A DNA stretch of 32,122 nt from a virus. Of this stretch, positions 1,918 to 31,089 are shown piece after piece. The stretch is from positions 1 through 32,122 of IMG/VR virus record IMGVR_UViG_3300036668_000023; one strand, written 5' to 3'. Below the pieces are notes generated by a model. It saw only the letters and a list, made by a program, of their open reading frames with translations. It had not been told where the DNA came from and did not search any database. Within the stretch, counting starts at the first letter, position 1, and every line of letters starts with the position of its first letter. A program made the position numbers and the translations under genes.

Positions 1918-2151
1918 TTATTTCCCATTCAAGCCGCTAGCAAAAAATCCAACAATTGCAGAGGAGAACGAAACCACTGTCATGCCAAACCAAAGCCCGC
2001 CACGGCCTTTATTTGCTAACGCCACCAGCTCTTCAAGTTGGCGCTCAACCTTGTCCATTTTCTTATCCATGTCTTGGACTTTTTGCCAGAGAACGCCGTA
2101 TTTCACAAGGTCAATCTCATTAACATCTGCCATAACTTGAGGCTCCAACAT
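1918..2151 (-). CDS. Coiled-coil protein with C-terminal membrane anchor (XhlA-like)
   Basis: 77 residues from the first ATG. A coiled coil rich in K/D/E (about 18-50, with V-E-R-Q-L-E-E-L) precedes one hydrophobic segment (about 53-73). This architecture matches small phage lysis-accessory proteins such as XhlA; similarity is architectural only. A second ATG at 2133 has a stronger GGAG at nine-base spacing and would give 71 residues starting M-A-D-V-N, a plausible true start. It lies just upstream of the holin gene, supporting a role in membrane permeabilisation. Confidence 0.75.
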   Translation of the reverse strand: MLEPQVMADVNEIDLVKYGVLWQKVQDMDKKMDKVERQLEELVALANKGRGGLWFGMTVVSFSSAIVGFFASGLNGK

Positions 2152-2505
2152 TTAAAGACCTTGGCCTGGTGTGATGTAGACCGTAGCTGCTGCGCTTGAC
2201 AGGCCGCTAAAGAAGGTGTCTTTGTTGAAACGCAAGATTTCTACGGCACCAGGCAGCAGAACGATGGCGTCAGAAGGCGTACCAGCCACCGGCGCAACTG
2301 CTTTAGCAGTGGCATCGGCAGCAGAGACGCCAGCGCCTAGGAACACGGTTGTAGTGCCTGCATTAACAATGCGGTATTGGCCGGTTGCCTGCGGGTCAAA
2401 CCGGACCAAGACCGGCGCTTGCACGCCTGCCGGAGCTGTTGCAGCAGCAGGAACAACAATGGTTTTGCCTTGCGGGTTAAAGGCAATTTGCGAATTATTA
2501 GACAT
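2152..2505 (-). CDS. Small beta-rich protein, probably structural
   Basis: 117 residues, Ala/Thr/Val/Gly-rich, with alternating beta-strand patterning and no membrane segment. The composition suggests a secreted or virion Ig-like or jelly-roll fold, as in small decoration or fibre-associated proteins. It lies between the adhesin genes and the lysis cassette and abuts the next gene without a gap. No specific family recognised. The protein at 12086-12418 has a similar size and character, but I saw no convincing sequence identity between them. Confidence 0.7.
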   Translation of the reverse strand: MSNNSQIAFNPQGKTIVVPAAATAPAGVQAPVLVRFDPQATGQYRIVNAGTTTVFLGAGVSAADATAKAVAPVAGTPSDAIVLLPGAVEILRFNKDTFFSGLSSAAATVYITPGQGL

Positions 2506-2541
2506 GTTTATAGTTCCTTTAAAAAATTATAAGATTTACTT

Positions 2542-2826
2542 TTACGGTAATAAAATATATTCAGCAAAAAATGCACACGCTAAAACAGCTACGCTTGGCA
2601 AAATCCAATCAAGCAAGCCTTTTGTCGTCCAAGCCCTGCGCTGTAACCCACCCCACCAAGGCATATTCTCTCGCTTCCCACCATAATTATTTTTAATATT
2701 GCGATATTCAGCTTGACTTACTTCTCGACCCATATAAAAAGCTGTTGCAAAAATAGCCCCAGCCCAAACGTTTATCACAAATGAGATAATAAATTGCATA
2801 AGAATGGCAATAGGAATATGGGTCAT
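2542..2826 (-). CDS. Conserved phage membrane protein with two TM segments
   Basis: 94 residues. Hydrophobic segments at about 5-30 and 74-93 flank a soluble loop holding G-R-E-x3-A-E-Y-R and N-M-P-W-W-G-G-L. I recall this layout (I-P-I-A-x-L-M-Q at the N-terminus, the GRE..AEYR and MPWWGG motifs) from many phage genomes where it is unnamed. The position between adhesin and lysis genes suggests a lysis-accessory or superinfection role, but nothing in the sequence decides. The ATG follows a run of A after the upstream stop with no clear ribosome-binding site. Confidence 0.75.
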   Translation of the reverse strand: MTHIPIAILMQFIISFVINVWAGAIFATAFYMGREVSQAEYRNIKNNYGGKRENMPWWGGLQRRAWTTKGLLDWILPSVAVLACAFFAEYILLP

Positions 2827-2831
2827 TTTTT

Positions 2832-3842
2832 TTATGGAAGAATGCGCTTATTCTTGCGTCTAGTGTAGATGTACTTGCCAAGTTGAAACGAAAAATCCCA
2901 ACCGTTGTTGTTTCCATTGTCAATATTATTGTTCGTCGTGTAAGCGTTCCAAGTCGCTCCACCAGTAGCATCAATGTCTTTGATGGTCAGAAAGGTTGTG
3001 TTCACTGTTCCACTAGCCTGCGACAGTGTTGCTTGAGAACCAGCAACAGTTGACTGAAGAAATTTTTGGGTTGTGCCAGGTGCTAAAAATGTCCCAACAG
3101 TGCTAGCCACCCCGTTTTTCAAGCTGATTGACCCGTTGACAAATACTAGCACCCGTGTAGCACCTTGCGTTAAAGCATCTTGGAAACTCCAAGCACCATT
3201 CACACCGTTGAACTGAAGTGCTGTGTCAACTGTTAAACCACCAGTTGTGATTGTCTGTGGTGTTGTTGCGGCAAAAGTCAGCGTATTGGCGGTTGCGGTA
3301 AACGTCATCCCTGAGTGCATGGTTAAGCTACCAAACAATCCACTGCTACTGGCGCGTATGAAACTTCCAGTAAACGCTGGTTGGAATGTTAAGTCATTTA
3401 GTCTTGAGCCATTCCCGCTCATGCTTACAATGTCGCTTCCAGCAATAACATCAAAGCTGACTGAATTTGCTTCTATTACCCCAATTCCTGCATTGATTGT
3501 GCGTGTTCCTGTCCCACCAGCATAAGTTAACTTAACACGAGGGTTGCCAATCATAGTAGGAGCAACACCACCGTTGTAAACAATTTGCGCGTTACCGACT
3601 ACACTAACAATATAATTATCAAAATCAATTGTGCCACCAGTAAAAACTGCTGGATTAAAAACTAAAACAGTTACATCTTCACCGATAGTAACCGTACCAC
3701 CGCCTGAGCTTGCATTAAAAACAGCTAAATCCGCAACGCCAGGTGCAGATGCGCCACCAGCACCACCAGTTGTAGCTGACCAATTAGCGGTTGATGTGGT
3801 GTCCCACGTTCCTGTTCCGCCAACCCAGAATCGGTTAGCCAT
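2832..3842 (-). CDS. Beta-rich adhesin-like virion protein
   Basis: 336 residues, starting M-A-N-R-F-W-V-G-G-T-G-T-W. This opening, with T-W-D followed by N-W-S, recurs in phage and secreted adhesin-like proteins. The body is Gly/Thr/Ser/Val-rich with short strand repeats, suggesting a beta-helix or stacked sandwich. Near the C-terminus is an N/G/D-rich segment (N-N-N-I-D-N-G-N-N-N-G-W) that resembles a calcium-binding or trimer-closing turn, then a basic tail. It is the third adhesin-type gene in a row and probably contributes to host recognition. Exact role not determined. Confidence 0.75.
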   Translation of the reverse strand: MANRFWVGGTGTWDTTSTANWSATTGGAGGASAPGVADLAVFNASSGGGTVTIGEDVTVLVFNPAVFTGGTIDFDNYIVSVVGNAQIVYNGGVAPTMIGNPRVKLTYAGGTGTRTINAGIGVIEANSVSFDVIAGSDIVSMSGNGSRLNDLTFQPAFTGSFIRASSSGLFGSLTMHSGMTFTATANTLTFAATTPQTITTGGLTVDTALQFNGVNGAWSFQDALTQGATRVLVFVNGSISLKNGVASTVGTFLAPGTTQKFLQSTVAGSQATLSQASGTVNTTFLTIKDIDATGGATWNAYTTNNNIDNGNNNGWDFSFQLGKYIYTRRKNKRILP

Positions 3843-23220: not shown

Positions 23221-23410
23221 AAGTTTTCATTAGTGAATCAGCCATTTCAATACTCATAACGGCAACCATCTCAACCCTAAACTTTTTTGGATTTGGCACG
23301 CCTTGCTGTCGTTTAATTGCCTTGGCTTTGTGAATGTATAAGCAACCCTCCATTGGAGAGCCATCGTGGTCATGCACAACACACCATCTTTTACATGGAA
23401 GTATTTTCAT
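23213..23410 (-). CDS. Small hypothetical protein after the methyltransferase gene
   Basis: 65 residues from the ATG at 23410, chosen because it overlaps the methyltransferase stop as ATGA. A longer form from 23428 would add six residues. The product starts M-K-I-L-P-C-K-R-W-C-V, has three cysteines (6, 10, 23) and a basic middle, and no membrane segment. Not recognised. It lies between the methyltransferase and the terminase genes. Confidence 0.65.
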   Translation of the reverse strand: MKILPCKRWCVVHDHDGSPMEGCLYIHKAKAIKRQQGVPNPKKFRVEMVAVMSIEMADSLMKTYG

Positions 23411-24462
23411 ACGCCTACTTTTAACCACTGGTCACGGACTGCACAAGCTACCGCCTCTGTCATCTTAGGAGGTACACTCATGCCAATCATGTACTTACCA
23501 ATGTTGTTTGATTTAGCCTGATAATCATCTGGGAATGAGCCAAGCCGCTTCCACTCTCTATAAGTTAACTTCCTGCATTTATCCCAATGCCTAATAACAT
23601 CCGTAGCAATAACTGTTACTGATGGTTTTTCTTTATTTAATCTAACCATGTTAAATCCTGATGGTTTACCTTGTAACCTTTCCCATTCTTTAGAATAACT
23701 GCTGCCAGGCTTAGTGCCTGGCCAAAACTGAATGTCTGTTGCGGTTGCTTTGGTTTCTTTTAGCTCATCATCAGTTAATGCCTGCAAGTCTTGAGTGGCC
23801 TCTCCTGCGCTAATCCATTTATGAGTTGGGGTTAGCTTTAGCGGCGGCACATCAATATCATTGCGAACAGCGCAAAAAAACACACGTTCTCTACGCTGCG
23901 GAACCCCGCAATCAGCCGCGTTTAACAAAAACAACTGTGGCCTATAACCAAGCTCTTTAAACCTTTGCATAACCATTTTTGTATAGCCTTTAGCGTTTCC
24001 GATTAGCATACCTTTAACGTTTTCAGCAATAGCAACTTTTGGCTTTAGCTTGCCTACAAGGTCAAGATAATCAAAAAATAAGTCAGACAATACTTGTTTA
24101 GATTGACCTTCCCTGAAATGCTTTTCTTTTCCCCATGATTTCTCACGGCTTCCTGCCATGCTAAATGTAGAACATGGAGGCGAACCGTCTAGAACATCAA
24201 GGTTATATAGCTCCTCAGGCAAATCTTTATTCAGCAATTCTCCAATAGGGCAAAGAAAGTAGTATTTAGGGTTAATATTTAGCTTGTAGTGCCACGCCAT
24301 TTCTGGGTCTATGTCATTAGCAGCAATAACATCAAATCCAGCTCTTTTATAGCCCATGCTTGACCCGCCACCGCAAGCAAAGGTAGACATTACTTTTAAG
24401 TTGTGTTTAGGGATATTTTGTAGGTCTGCTATATCCCATGCGCAGTCTGGTTTATTTTTCAT
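23407..24462 (-). CDS. DNA (cytosine-5) methyltransferase
   Basis: 351 residues from the ATG at 24462 (a GTG at 24477 is possible). C5-methyltransferase motifs in order: I (S-T-F-A-C-G-G-G-S-S), IV (D-G-S-P-P-C-S-T-F-S, with the catalytic Cys), VI (A-E-N-V-K-G), VIII (Q-R-R-E-R-V-F-F) and a C-terminal motif X-like region. The target recognition region is about residues 205-300. No restriction endonuclease is nearby, so it is an orphan enzyme, likely protecting phage DNA from host restriction or marking it. It overlaps the ParB-domain gene by 11 bases. Confidence 0.94.
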   Translation of the reverse strand: MKNKPDCAWDIADLQNIPKHNLKVMSTFACGGGSSMGYKRAGFDVIAANDIDPEMAWHYKLNINPKYYFLCPIGELLNKDLPEELYNLDVLDGSPPCSTFSMAGSREKSWGKEKHFREGQSKQVLSDLFFDYLDLVGKLKPKVAIAENVKGMLIGNAKGYTKMVMQRFKELGYRPQLFLLNAADCGVPQRRERVFFCAVRNDIDVPPLKLTPTHKWISAGEATQDLQALTDDELKETKATATDIQFWPGTKPGSSYSKEWERLQGKPSGFNMVRLNKEKPSVTVIATDVIRHWDKCRKLTYREWKRLGSFPDDYQAKSNNIGKYMIGMSVPPKMTEAVACAVRDQWLKVGV

Positions 24463-24976
24463 CAAATTCAAACCCACATTTTGGACACTGATGGCCTAAC
24501 TTGTAGTCGTCTGGGTTAATTTCTTTAGAGCTGGTTTCAGGTGTTTCATTATTTGCAACGTATAAATTAAGTAAGCTGTTTATTTCAATTTGCGTAAAAC
24601 CTGTTAGCTCAAGATGCAATTCTGTAAGGTCGGACAGCTCTATCTTTAACAATTCATCATCCCACCCAGCGTTCAAAGCCAGCTTGTTGTCGGCAATGAT
24701 GTAGGCTTTCTTTTGCGCTCCAGTAAGGTTTGTCAGCCGTATGCAGGGCACTTCGTCAAGCCCTAGCTTGCGTGCCGCCATAGTGCGCCCGTGGCCAGCA
24801 ATGATGCCGCCCTCTGCGTCTATCAATATAGGGTTTGTGAAGCCAAACTCGCGTATGCTCGCGGCTATTTGCGCAACTTGCGCGTCTGAGTGCGTTCTGC
24901 TGTTCCTGGCATAAGGTATTAGCGTTTCAAGAGCAATATATTCTAAATTGTTCCCGACTTTATCCATTGTCGTCAT
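24452..24976 (-). CDS. ParB/sulfiredoxin-fold nuclease-like protein with C-terminal zinc knuckle
   Basis: 174 residues, start supported by GGAG five bases upstream of the ATG. Residues 12-125 match the ParB N-terminal domain seen in phages: P-Y-A-R-N-S-R-T-H-S near 21-30, F-G-F-T-N-P-I-L-I-D, and the core G-H-G-R-T-M-A-A-R-K-L-G at 61-72. Residues 162-167 (H-x-C-P-K-C) could bind zinc, although only one CxxC is present. Related domains are often fused to DNA methyltransferases; here a separate C5 enzyme is encoded immediately downstream. The function may be nicking, NTP binding or targeting of the methylase. Confidence 0.87.
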   Translation of the reverse strand: MTTMDKVGNNLEYIALETLIPYARNSRTHSDAQVAQIAASIREFGFTNPILIDAEGGIIAGHGRTMAARKLGLDEVPCIRLTNLTGAQKKAYIIADNKLALNAGWDDELLKIELSDLTELHLELTGFTQIEINSLLNLYVANNETPETSSKEINPDDYKLGHQCPKCGFEFDEK

Positions 24977-27957: not shown

Positions 27958-28072
27958 ATTCTTGCTCTGTAATCTCACTAACAATGTACAACGCTTGGTT
28001 GATTATGAATACAGGGTAATCCCTACCTTCACGCACCAAATCAAGTATTTTTCTTGCTTGGTAGCAGTTCAT
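27929..28072 (-). CDS. 47-residue early protein
   Basis: A frame from the ATG at 28072, overlapping the preceding stop as ATGA, to the TAA at 27929. The product begins M-N-C-Y-Q-A-R-K-I-L-D-L-V-R-E-G and has a Y-P-V-F-I-I-N-Q-A-L-Y core, a pattern I recall from short phage proteins next to replication genes. It fills the only gap between the P-like gene and the next one, overlapping both. Function unknown. Confidence 0.72.
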   Translation of the reverse strand: MNCYQARKILDLVREGRDYPVFIINQALYIVSEITEQEYEKTKQIQA

Positions 28073-28512
28073 TGCAAAGCCTCTTTAGCAAAGCGTATGC
28101 TTGTTGGGTTTGTCTTTTTCCCATCTTCATAGCCTTGCAATATTCGCTTTGCCCAAGCCTTGTGGTCAACCGGCAAGGCTTTAGTGACCAATTGCTTGAG
28201 GTCTTGCAACTTTGACAGCTCACGAGCCAAACGCTCTGGGTCTGCTTTTGGCTCTGGCAACCTTGGTGCTTCAGGTGCTGGTGAACGTCGGCACAGGTTT
28301 CTAAACTCGATGATGTTGGGCGCTCGCTCTGGCAGGTTTTCCAAAGCCCATGCCAACACTTCAAGCCGCCCACCGTAACCACTTAACTCGTGTGCCCACG
28401 CTGTCTTTACATCAGAAAGCGGAACGTCAGACCACTGGCGCGACCACGCCGAACCATAAGTTGCGGCCAGGCGTTCAAAAAGCCTGTCAATTGCTTTGAT
28501 TGATATACTCAT
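28069..28512 (-). CDS. Putative replication protein P-like helicase loader
   Basis: 147 residues. The N-terminal 75 have the layout of phage P-like proteins: L-F-E-R-L-A-A-T-Y-G-S-A-W, V-K-T-A-W-A-H-E-L, and A-L-E-N-L-P-E-R-A-P-N-I-I-E-F-R-N-L-C. A Pro-rich linker and a helical basic tail follow. Lambda P loads the host DnaB helicase at the origin. The gene is directly downstream of the DUF1376/O-like initiator with ATGA overlap, matching O-P order. Assignment is by pattern and context, moderately sure. Confidence 0.65.
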   Translation of the reverse strand: MSISIKAIDRLFERLAATYGSAWSRQWSDVPLSDVKTAWAHELSGYGGRLEVLAWALENLPERAPNIIEFRNLCRRSPAPEAPRLPEPKADPERLARELSKLQDLKQLVTKALPVDHKAWAKRILQGYEDGKKTNPTSIRFAKEALQ

Positions 28513-29288
28513 TTCAACTCCAATACGCTAGTGTCAACGTCAATAAAAGATTGTGATTCTGTTGGCCACTGCCTGCCGGTCATTTCCTCCCAACGCTTTT
28601 GCTTTGCGAGCTGGTCACGCTCGGCAAAACTTAGGGTCTGTGCCTGGCTGCTTGACTTTTTTGCCACCCATATAGCCTTAAAAGACTTCCAGCCACGTAT
28701 CACTGTTTCAGACAATGCATCTTCCAAAGTCCAGCCAGCCTTATCGGCTTCTTTTTGTATTCCAGCAACAACCAATTTGCTGACTGTCTCCTTTTTGCGT
28801 TTGCGGTGAGCAACAAATTCATCCCAAACTGACTGTGATACGCCGTCAGGCGGTGCAACGCTAGTTGCTGTCTTATCTTTGGTTAATGGTTTATGGTTTG
28901 TGGTTAGTGGTTTGTGGTTAGGGTTATTTTGGCTTTCGTCTGGGTTCCCATCAATAACCGACTGGGTTTTCTTTGGCCTACCGCCTAGCTTCCCGTTGGT
29001 GCGATTTTTATCAGCTTGGCCGTGATACTCATTAATTTCCAACCTAATCCGTGTTTGCGAGTATCCCTCATTGCCCTTGGCAAAGAAGTCTGACAACACA
29101 TTCAGCAATGAGGTTTCATGCTCAGAACCGAGGCGTAACCGACGCATAACCACTTGGGTTTCAAGCGGTATTGGTTGCTCATCTAGGTATTGCCAATCAA
29201 TTAGCTGGCGATAAATGCCATGCTCAATTGTTGTGAGGTGGCCGGTATCCTTGCGATAGTCGGCGATGTTGAACTTGTAATAGTGCAT
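28509..29288 (-). CDS. DUF1376 (O-like) replication initiator candidate
   Basis: 259 residues. Residues 1-90 match DUF1376: M-H-Y-Y-K-F-N-I-A-D-Y-R-K-D-T-G-H-L-T, then E-H-G-I-Y-R-Q-L-I-D-W-Q-Y and L-S-D-F-F. A linker contains a repeated N-H-K-P-L-T element encoded by DNA iterons (28880-28921). The C-terminal part (about 145-225) is helical with V-W-D-E-F-V-A-H-R-K and W-K-S-F-K-A-I-W. Phage proteins of this type sit where lambda O does and probably bind the iterons. It is the first gene of the leftward early operon. Confidence 0.85.
   Translation of the reverse strand: MHYYKFNIADYRKDTGHLTTIEHGIYRQLIDWQYLDEQPIPLETQVVMRRLRLGSEHETSLLNVLSDFFAKGNEGYSQTRIRLEINEYHGQADKNRTNGKLGGRPKKTQSVIDGNPDESQNNPNHKPLTTNHKPLTKDKTATSVAPPDGVSQSVWDEFVAHRKRKKETVSKLVVAGIQKEADKAGWTLEDALSETVIRGWKSFKAIWVAKKSSSQAQTLSFAERDQLAKQKRWEEMTGRQWPTESQSFIDVDTSVLELK
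28880..28921. repeat. Three 14-bp iterons inside the initiator gene, candidate origin
   Basis: Two identical adjacent 14-base units (28894-28907 and 28908-28921, tggtttgtggttag) are preceded by a third, degenerate one at 28880-28893 (10 of 14 bases match). The repeats encode the N-H-K-P-L-T repetition in the linker of the initiator. Lambda's origin also consists of iterons within gene O, so this is the best origin candidate in the window. Confidence 0.65.
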
Positions 29289-29884: not shown

Positions 29885-30457
29885 ATGCAAAAAATAGCAC
29901 AGGCTTTTGTAGCCGCCAAACGTGAATTTGCACCAGCGCTCAAGACCTCAACCAACCCACACTTTAAGAGCCGCTACGCTGACTTAGCTGGCTGCATGGA
30001 GGCAGTCAATGATGCTTTGCTGGCTAATGGCATTGCGCTGTACCAGGAGACCAGCGAAGACAGCACCGGCGTGACAGTTGAAACCGTGTTCTTGCATGAA
30101 TCAGGCGAGACACTGCGCGGCGGCAAACTGCACGTTCCTGCTAGCAAACAAGACCCCCAGGGATACGGTTCGGCACTTACATATGCCAGACGCTACTCGG
30201 TAATGGCGGCTTGCGGCATAGCGGCAGAAGACGATGATGGTAATGCGGCAGTCAAAGCAAAGCCAACCAAGCCAGCAGTAAAGCAAATCAGCGAGCAAGA
30301 CTTAAACCTGGCGCTTAATAGCGTTGCACACGCTCAAACGCTAGACGACCTAAAGAGCGTTTACACAGAGGCAATTAAGTTTTGTGGCTCAGACGATGCG
30401 GCCAAGGCTCACGTTATTGCGTCAAAGAACCAACGCAAAGAGGAGTTGTCAGCATGA
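29885..30457 (+). CDS. erf: ERF-family single-strand annealing protein
   Basis: 190 residues. ERF hallmarks are present: N-P-H-F-K-S-R-Y-A-D-L at 24-34, V-E-T-V-F-L-H-E-S-G-E near 65-75 and Y-G-S-A-L-T-Y-A-R-R-Y-S at 94-105, then an acidic and variable C-terminal part. P22 Erf anneals complementary strands during circularisation and recombination. It overlaps the exonuclease gene by ATGA, forming an annealase-exonuclease pair. Confidence 0.94.
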   Translation: MQKIAQAFVAAKREFAPALKTSTNPHFKSRYADLAGCMEAVNDALLANGIALYQETSEDSTGVTVETVFLHESGETLRGGKLHVPASKQDPQGYGSALTYARRYSVMAACGIAAEDDDGNAAVKAKPTKPAVKQISEQDLNLALNSVAHAQTLDDLKSVYTEAIKFCGSDDAAKAHVIASKNQRKEELSA

Positions 30458-31089
30458 GCGAACAAGGCACGCCAGAATGGTTTGCGACCCGAATTGGCCT
30501 GGTGACTGCCAGCCGTGTAGCTGACCTCATGGCTAAAACCAAGTCAGGTTACTCAGCCAGCCGTGACAACTACATGGCGCAATTAGTGTGTGAGTTAGTT
30601 ACCGGCCAGCGCGAGGAGTCTTACAGCAACGCATCGATGGCATGGGGTAATGAGCAAGAACCTTTTGCACGCGCAGCATACGAGGCCAAGGCGAACGTTT
30701 TGGTTGACGAAGTAGGGTTCATACTCCATCCGACAATTGCAGGCTGTGGAGCTTCACCTGATGGACTGGTGGGTGACAGTGGCCTGGTTGAGATTAAATG
30801 CCCAAACACCAACACCGCACTAGAGGCTTGGTTGAAGTGGGCGGACGACAAGAATCCGGTAGCTAGCAAGTACAACGTTCAAATGCAGATGCAGATGGCT
30901 TGTACTCAGCGCAAGTGGTGTGACTACGTTATTTACGACCCTCGAATGCCCGAAAAAGCTCAGTTGTTGGTTGTGCGCGTAGACCGCGACGATGCTTTTA
31001 TTGCAGATATGGAGTTGGAAGTAACACGGTTTATTGAGGAGTTAAACAAAAAAGTTGTCAAGCTCAAAGCGGCAATGGAGGCGTTATGA
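30454..31089 (+). CDS. YqaJ-type viral exonuclease
   Basis: 211 residues; start set at the ATG overlapping the ERF stop, preceded by AGGAG. The start (G-T-P-E-W-F-A-T-R-I-G-L-V-T-A-S) is the typical YqaJ opening. The PD-(D/E)xK nuclease core is seen as S-P-D103-G-L-V, L-V-E113-I-K115-C-P and a Q-M-Q-M-Q-M segment near 143-148, with W-G-N-E-Q-E-P at 64-70. It should degrade one strand of double-stranded DNA ends to feed the ERF protein, as lambda Exo feeds Beta. Confidence 0.94.
   Translation: MSEQGTPEWFATRIGLVTASRVADLMAKTKSGYSASRDNYMAQLVCELVTGQREESYSNASMAWGNEQEPFARAAYEAKANVLVDEVGFILHPTIAGCGASPDGLVGDSGLVEIKCPNTNTALEAWLKWADDKNPVASKYNVQMQMQMACTQRKWCDYVIYDPRMPEKAQLLVVRVDRDDAFIADMELEVTRFIEELNKKVVKLKAAMEAL

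Follow-up and report, generated by a model that had tools for sequence, protein, structure and literature searches.

A putative composite lambda-type replication origin in the linker-coding part of phage DUF1376 genes

In phage lambda, the initiator gene O is followed by gene P, which encodes the helicase loader. The middle of O contains iterons and an AT-rich tract, and the O protein binds single-stranded DNA (accessible parts of PMC7466680 and PMC6022878). In RepA_N-type plasmid and PLE satellite initiators (5kbj), the N-domain is described as binding semi-palindromic iterons (accessible part of PMC7145576), and strand-specific binding to melted DUE repeats is described for DnaA, TrfA, and RepE (accessible part of PMC4980987). 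The Rac prophage of E. coli has an origin, oriJ, which is called active in the accessible part of PMC3945230.

The DNA analyzed here (hereafter the window) is a 32,122-base virus record, IMG/VR IMGVR_UViG_3300036668_000023, positions 1 to 32,122. The following features on its minus strand are given in the order in which they are discussed.

28509..29288, minus strand: DUF1376 (YdaU-like) gene of 259 aa, probable phage replication initiator (PF07120, PHROGs)
29034..29285, minus strand: DUF1376 N-terminal domain, predicted winged helix, residues 2–85 (Pfam, structure model)
28845..28988, minus strand: linker-coding stretch, residues 101–148, of which 101–140 have low confidence
28578..28835, minus strand: predicted folded C-terminal domain, residues 152–237 (model and phrog_678 match)
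28880..28919, minus strand: strand-oriented array of six AACCA cores at exact 7-bp steps (sequence, recoding test)
28920..28926, minus strand: degenerate seventh unit TAACCCT, one base off register, between the iteron region and the array
28956..28968, minus strand: iteron-like dyad AACC-CAGTC-GGTT of the 'P' class (sequence, relatives)
28940..28946, minus strand: iteron-like half site AACCCAG (sequence)
28869..28879, minus strand: A-rich spacer following the array (sequence)
28855..28868, minus strand: hairpin 1, GCAAC-TAGC-GTTGC (DNA fold, like-coded hairpins)
28841..28852, minus strand: hairpin 2, CGCC-TGAC-GGCG (DNA fold, covariation)
28069..28512, minus strand: next gene, weak match to the P-like helicase loader family phrog_109 at E 7.8e-4 (PHROGs; no Pfam match)

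Residues 2–85 of the protein match DUF1376 (PF07120, E 1.1e-20), which is the sole Pfam match at E 0.001; neither a RepA_N nor an O-family match was obtained for the N-domain at this threshold. In PHROGs, the protein matches 'primosomal protein' families, and residues 105–241 match phrog_678 ('replication initiation O-like'). The structure model (mean pLDDT 85.5, pTM 0.49) has folded N- and C-domains. Block pLDDT values are 63, 49, 54, and 57 across residues 101–140 and 88 for residues 141–150. The former segment is predicted to be a disordered linker, and these low values agree with an earlier note on this DNA, which had placed the repeats in the linker-coding part. The best VIA-align Z score of the predicted N-domain is 6.5, for an RNA polymerase III subunit, followed by 6.4 for the origin recognition complex subunit 7jpq chain B and 5.2–5.6 for the initiators 4pql, 4pt7, and 5kbj (rmsd 2.9–4.1, 73–80 residues aligned), and such values below 8 may mean merely a common fold. 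We take 4pql and 4pt7 to be RepA_N-type initiators. The likeness of the RepA_N-type initiators to the predicted DUF1376 N-domain is subject to the same reading; they differ in that the DUF1376 protein has no RepA_N match in Pfam and that no CCA array is mentioned for RepA_N in the accessible part of PMC7145576. A Foldseek search with the predicted structure returned zero matches at E 0.001 or better, and a sequence profile search of the PDB returned a single, unrelated chain (E 0.86).

According to its annotation and sequence, the lambda origin in the middle of O is arranged like the DUF1376 element, with dyad repeats, a strand-asymmetric A-rich tract, and then a palindrome. Like origins of the lambda type, the DUF1376 genes as a family have iteron-like repeats midway through the initiator gene; the window itself contributes one dyad and one half site. 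The N-domain of lambda O belongs to a family other than DUF1376, which is the only Pfam family that the DUF1376 protein matches. The tracts also differ: that of the DUF1376 genes consists of regular, oriented CCA heptads or hexads, whereas that of lambda is A-rich and has at most a loose 7-nt period by eye. In the lambda tract (positions 39119–39160 of lambda, 520–561 of our locus L514), this loose period reads AAAAGAAAAAAGAAAAG, and the repeats of loci L386 and L387 look similar by eye. No solved relative of lambda O was found by sequence at E 0.01. The DnaA-trio and the single-strand DUE motifs of oriC and RK2 are likewise short one-strand repeats beside duplex-binding sites; the DUF1376 units differ from them in being CCA repeats of 6–7 nt within phage coding sequence, where single-strand binding is hypothetical.

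In Rac, the DUF1376 gene ydaU is followed by ydaV, a gene for a putative ATP-binding protein. Three TGTTCAAACA-type iteron-like repeats can be seen by eye in the linker-coding part of ydaU, which differs from the window gene in having no CCA array. Plasmids based on oriJ are said to have been described by Potrykus in 2000. In the accessible open-licence literature, we found neither the position of oriJ relative to ydaU nor a description of these repeats or of a DUF1376 origin. A YdaU-family gene accompanied by a gene for an ATP-binding protein is also present on the Acinetobacter plasmid pSWBY1 (L497, 15900–16790), together with resistance genes, and it is uninformative on origin use because RepM is encoded on the same plasmid.

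The earlier note had described the array as tandem 14-bp repeats, two perfect and one degenerate. Identical 14-mers do lie at 28894–28907 and 28908–28921, with a degenerate copy at 28880–28893, but the basic unit is 7 bp, which reads TGGTTNN on the plus strand and AACCANN in the coding direction. On its coding strand, the array contains 21 A, 15 C, 4 T, and no G. Five adjacent core pairs are present against 0.13 expected, a number that none of 100 dinucleotide shuffles reached, and when the gene was recoded synonymously at random 5000 times with the codon usage of 14 window ORFs, a six-core chain appeared twice. The array encodes the repeated peptide NHKPLTTNHKPLT. Because every reading frame of AACCANN yields, by inspection, the cyclic pattern N-x-x-P-x-T-x, the peptide repeat is a consequence of the DNA repeat and does not count as independent evidence. 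A CRISPR array was ruled out, as the 7-bp units are arranged head to tail without spacers.

A DNA-pattern scan of IMG/VR gave, among the matches listed and leaving out four copies of the window, at least 202 arrays (at least four AACCANN cores) in 199 loci. For 178 of these listed arrays, the enclosing ORF is a same-strand DUF1376 gene, the N-domain being called by a profile built from our alignment A2, and none lies opposite such an ORF. Arrays of mixed units account for 182 of the 202, and 169 of these 182 are inside DUF1376 genes. Among the 24 arrays outside profile-called DUF1376 ORFs, several are near contig ends, and those of L218 and L226 belong to proteins that match DUF1376 in Pfam (L226 under the curated cut-off). 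In L182, an array sits in a 344-aa ORF (2094–3125) without a Pfam match at E 0.01; this ORF may encode an initiator of another type that shares the element. Pfam was also run on 111 selected proteins with arrays, namely the window's own and the first 110 from a less redundant set of 148 (200–345 aa), and DUF1376 was found in 110 of the 111 at E 0.001. The mean column identity of the selected set is 14%, so the DNA motif persists where the protein sequence has diverged. Among 398 bacterial genomes, the AACCANN-array pattern occurred in 7 and the reversed pattern in 6, mostly as uniform simple repeats; the array pattern carries no signal outside phages.

Another sample was picked by the N-domain, in which 156 newly fetched loci gave 155 with long-enough ORFs and 113 nonredundant genes, some of the contigs being present in the DNA-picked set as well. 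Because the seed alignments came largely from array-bearing genes, this sample is blind per locus and not per clade. At least four [AC]CCA cores at 6–8 bp steps were found on the coding strand of 84 of the 113 genes and on the reverse strand of none, whereas 3.8% of synonymous recodings (20 per gene, 113 genes) contained a chain of at least four cores. This difference indicates that selection acts on the nucleic acid. The reverse-strand and recoding controls were used in place of a control pattern, ACCAANN, which was dropped because it overlaps AACCAANN. By type, the 84 array genes comprise 40 with AACCANN, 24 with CACCANN, and 20 with 6-bp units (such as CACCAA, ACCAAG, and CCCAAT), and a good part of the other 29 genes have related repeats by eye (CTCCAGA, AGCCANN, AAACANN, CACAANN). 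The encoded peptides are diverse (NHKPLT, HQTPDT, TPTPTP, PNPNPN, NQNQ, TKTK, QDQD), while the DNA core is alike. The DUF1376 linker of L364 contains a 9-bp variant array with about five copies of AACCCAACT. Variants were viewed in 75 genome loci that give no rate, as they were picked partly by the peptide pattern of the array. A less seeded sample consisted of 20 PF07120 loci from two class-wide genome searches, three of them under the family cut-off. Arrays were clear in 2, partial in 4, and absent in 5 of these loci, with 9 being beyond the reach of the profile, and the array therefore belongs to the core of the family and not to all PF07120. Four of six named phages have at least four cores in a row, and phiAC-1 and Psymv2 have just three.

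The 'P'-class dyad upstream of the window array also precedes the array in the relatives L013, L041, and L137 and in phages BA3 and 1.183.O. The two dyad arms and the additional half site bring the window to three upstream of the array; 3.4% of synonymous recodings reach as many, which makes the number weakly significant. Within 110 nt upstream, 61% of the 84 array genes contain a perfect repeat, direct or inverted, of 10 nt or more, compared with 5.7% of recodings, 0% for the N-domain region, and 2.4% for the C-domain region. The repeat classes include GCAATGCGAACGCA, GTTGAAC/GTTCAAC, CCTGCAACG, GTCACGCGTGAC, ATGCCACGGCAT, and AACCCAG..GGTT, the last being that of the window. Narrower class patterns missed 38 of the 113 genes, and broader ones, chosen by eye, label 99 and miss 14. 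On the N-domain tree, the labels change 26 times compared with 43.8 for shuffled labels, and none of 200 shuffles gave so few changes. Half of the inner branches of this tree lack resolution, the small classes V, A, and D do not cluster, and relatedness alone could explain the clustering of the labels. In L517 (MG592549.1, 27814–27843), a 'CRISPR spacer' annotated by the depositors covers iteron-like AACCCAG repeats in the DUF1376 gene; it is probably a false call caused by the iteron/array element.

In line with the earlier note, which proposed binding of the DUF1376 protein to the repeat, the heptads themselves might be iterons that the DUF1376 domain binds as double-stranded DNA. A tandem array beside a predicted winged helix is consistent with this, three heptads span 21 bp or about two helical turns, and the array class agrees in 96% of the pairs with the same N-domain, 87% of those with only the same C-domain, and 59% of unrelated pairs (pairs are defined below). 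However, [AC]CCA is retained as the core between N-domains whose median identity is about 0.42 (unrelated-pair sample), whereas the upstream repeat set diversifies by clade. The heptad has no dyad symmetry, and the unit length is either 6 or 7 bp, which a rigid double-stranded array would resist. Because the core is kept while the upstream set diversifies, the heptads are less likely to be the iterons of the DUF1376 protein than a strand-asymmetric opening or loading element, and we consider their recognition as duplex iterons unlikely. Co-evolution, which the earlier note expected to leave a different sequence at the same place, is therefore not the pattern of the flagged repeat; the unflagged upstream repeat set does show it.

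Downstream of this putative opening element, the A+T content, which is 0.58–0.60 late in the array, reaches 0.65 in the next 15 nt against a gene mean of 0.47 (84 genes). By eye, this stretch is less AT-rich than the lambda tract, and the G+C-richer variants CACCAG and CCCAAT are not AT-rich. The DNA fold of 28836–28880, which includes both window hairpins, has a z of −2.44; taken alone, the window hairpins are not significant, as 36% of recodings reach the same. Across the family, a strong hairpin (score at least 15) lies within 45 nt after the array in 32 of 84 genes, compared with 7.1% of recodings. Other 45-nt segments, taken every 20 nt, have one in 0–12% of cases, save the overlapping segment 20 nt on (21%). 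A first count over 110 nt after the array, now superseded, had given a score of at least 15 in 40% of 206 genes compared with 12% of dinucleotide shuffles.

The hairpin stem covaries at synonymous positions. In hairpins coded by xPDGx, the paired third codon positions are Watson–Crick in 23 of 29 distinct sequence contexts (GC 11, AT 6, CG 3, TA 3), compared with a mean of 8.7 and 0 of 10,000 as high in shuffles, which ignore phylogeny. Without near-copies, the number is 23 of 28 against a mean of 8.4 in shuffles of the same, phylogeny-blind kind. In hairpins coded by A[TS]xVA (the window and 14 other genes), the synonymous pair is Watson–Crick in 15 of 15 (13 AT and 2 GC; p 0.008 by shuffles that ignore phylogeny).

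A hairpin preceded by C-rich, unstructured RNA would also fit a transcription or translation signal, and the element might act in mRNA, through Rho loading, antitermination, translational pausing, or an RNA-binding protein, and not in replication. It lies on the sense strand always in the samples seen, but this does not discriminate between mRNA and origin because the position fixes the orientation to the gene. Action in mRNA would leave both the adjoining iteron-like repeats and the tie to one replication-type family unexplained, and we regard it as improbable.

Domain swaps between phages were compared among array-bearing genes, which were reduced from 311 to 260 by removing near-copies and were sorted into pairs by the 3-mers shared in the N- and C-domains. 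In the pre-pruning sample, the median identities were 0.73 (N) and 0.20 (C) for pairs with the same N-domain and different C-domains, and 0.43 (N) and 0.72 (C) for pairs with different N-domains and the same C-domain. In the former, a common 9-mer was found upstream of the array in 398 of 585 pairs (68.0%) and downstream in 38 (6.5%). In the latter (46 pairs, 54 loci), the corresponding numbers were 9 (19.6%) and 38 (82.6%), and 16.7% of unrelated pairs have a common upstream 9-mer. When each locus was used once, upstream and downstream sharing was 72% and 8% for same-N pairs and 25% and 87% for same-C pairs. Before removal of near-copies, upstream sharing was similar (67.6% and 19.0%, respectively). 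These counts indicate that the iterons are exchanged together with the N-domain and the hairpin together with the C-domain, the array being the seam between them. The linkage of iterons and N-domain is partly expected from mere adjacency on the DNA.

The array might accordingly exist as a recombination seam, in which short repeats between the domains favour the swapping of N- and C-modules. The swap pairs do change across the array, with the upstream part following the N-domain and the downstream part the C-domain, and the window phage has genes for an ERF-superfamily protein and a YqaJ-type exonuclease. This would nevertheless leave the strand orientation, the covarying hairpin, and the upstream repeats unexplained. 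Selection for future swapping is weak, and the seam is better taken as a consequence; as the reason for the array, it has a low probability in our judgment.

It is very unlikely that the array is a protein-level linker or a slippage product without DNA function. The linker is of low complexity and predicted to be disordered, and the order and number of units vary among relatives, but the excess over recodings (four cores in 3.8% of recodings against 84 of 113 genes), the like DNA core under widely different peptides, and the mixed units of 182 of the 202 listed arrays all stand against it. A G-quadruplex on the TGG strand, suggested by GG every 6–7 nt on the template strand, is equally implausible in view of variants without in-register GG (AAACANN and CACAANN; L374, L334, L386, and L387, by eye), the DNA folding used here being one that does not model quadruplexes.

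The genes next to DUF1376 were compared in 108 of the 113 loci. P-like helicase loaders are matched in 20 of the 108, and DnaC-like loaders, DnaB-like helicases, and primase/helicase families in smaller, overlapping numbers (25 of 68 families listed). The commonest listed match is phrog_1524, a function-unknown family (23 of 108), which may be an unrecognised helicase loader. The GC skew, proposed in the earlier note as a check, gave a mixed picture. The raw minimum of the window is at 28829, 51 bases from the array, but a switch in gene direction about 1 kb or less away confounds the reading. The detrended minimum is elsewhere, at 0.60 of half a genome from the array when the record is taken as circular. 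In six phages, the detrended minimum lies at 0.10, 0.15, 0.61, 0.03, 0.64, and 0.04 of half a genome from the array. Elsewhere in the window, a ParB-like protein adjoins a C-5 cytosine methylase (23407–24976), and the ERF-superfamily protein adjoins the YqaJ-type exonuclease (29885–31089).

The composite element, consisting of iteron-like repeats, then the array, and then the hairpin, recurs in very different phages. The earlier note had read the flagged repeats as a candidate origin within an initiator gene, as in lambda O. The comparison supports this well through the constraint on the DNA, the upstream repeats, the covarying hairpin, the predicted winged helix, the O-like match of the C-domain, and the helicase or loader neighbours in part of the loci; it is less likely that the flagged repeats are themselves the iterons. 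Judging from sequence comparison, the linker-coding part of the DUF1376 gene probably holds a composite lambda-type replication origin that works by the mechanism outlined below.

Binding, opening, loading, and origin activity are what we infer for this element from its sequence. By analogy with the known origins, the upstream repeats would serve as duplex iterons, the array and spacer as an opening and single-strand track, and the hairpin as a boundary. The DUF1376 winged-helix domain, probably as dimers, would bind the clade-specific upstream sites (here AACCCAG/AACCCAGTCGGTT, 28940–28968). Binding would strain the adjacent tract, and the [AC]CCA array (28880–28919) with the A-rich spacer would be the strand-asymmetric segment that opens. 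The CCA (or TGG) that recurs every 7 nt on an exposed strand might then allow the initiator itself, or a helicase or loader, to hold that strand in register through repeated contacts, and the downstream hairpin would bound or structure the site at which helicase and loader are placed. As the gene is also coding sequence, the tract would sit where the protein tolerates a low-complexity linker. A bolder proposal, which we put forward tentatively, is that the [AC]CCA array is a new origin element, namely a single-strand track, similar in logic to the DnaA-trio and embedded in the coding sequence of DUF1376 initiators, that would be read every 6–7 nt by the initiator or a helicase partner once the DNA has opened. 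It would also be the seam at which phages exchange a module of N-domain and iterons and a module of hairpin and C-domain.

Pfam assigns no function to DUF1376, a family that is present in many phages and prophages here, and the comparison suggests that its members may act as initiators with an origin in their own gene. Sense-strand [AC]CCA every 6–7 bp, with repeats before and a hairpin after, would provide a DNA signature for predicting origins in environmental phage contigs. The family would also exemplify the exchange of two matched modules, each made up of one protein domain and one DNA element.
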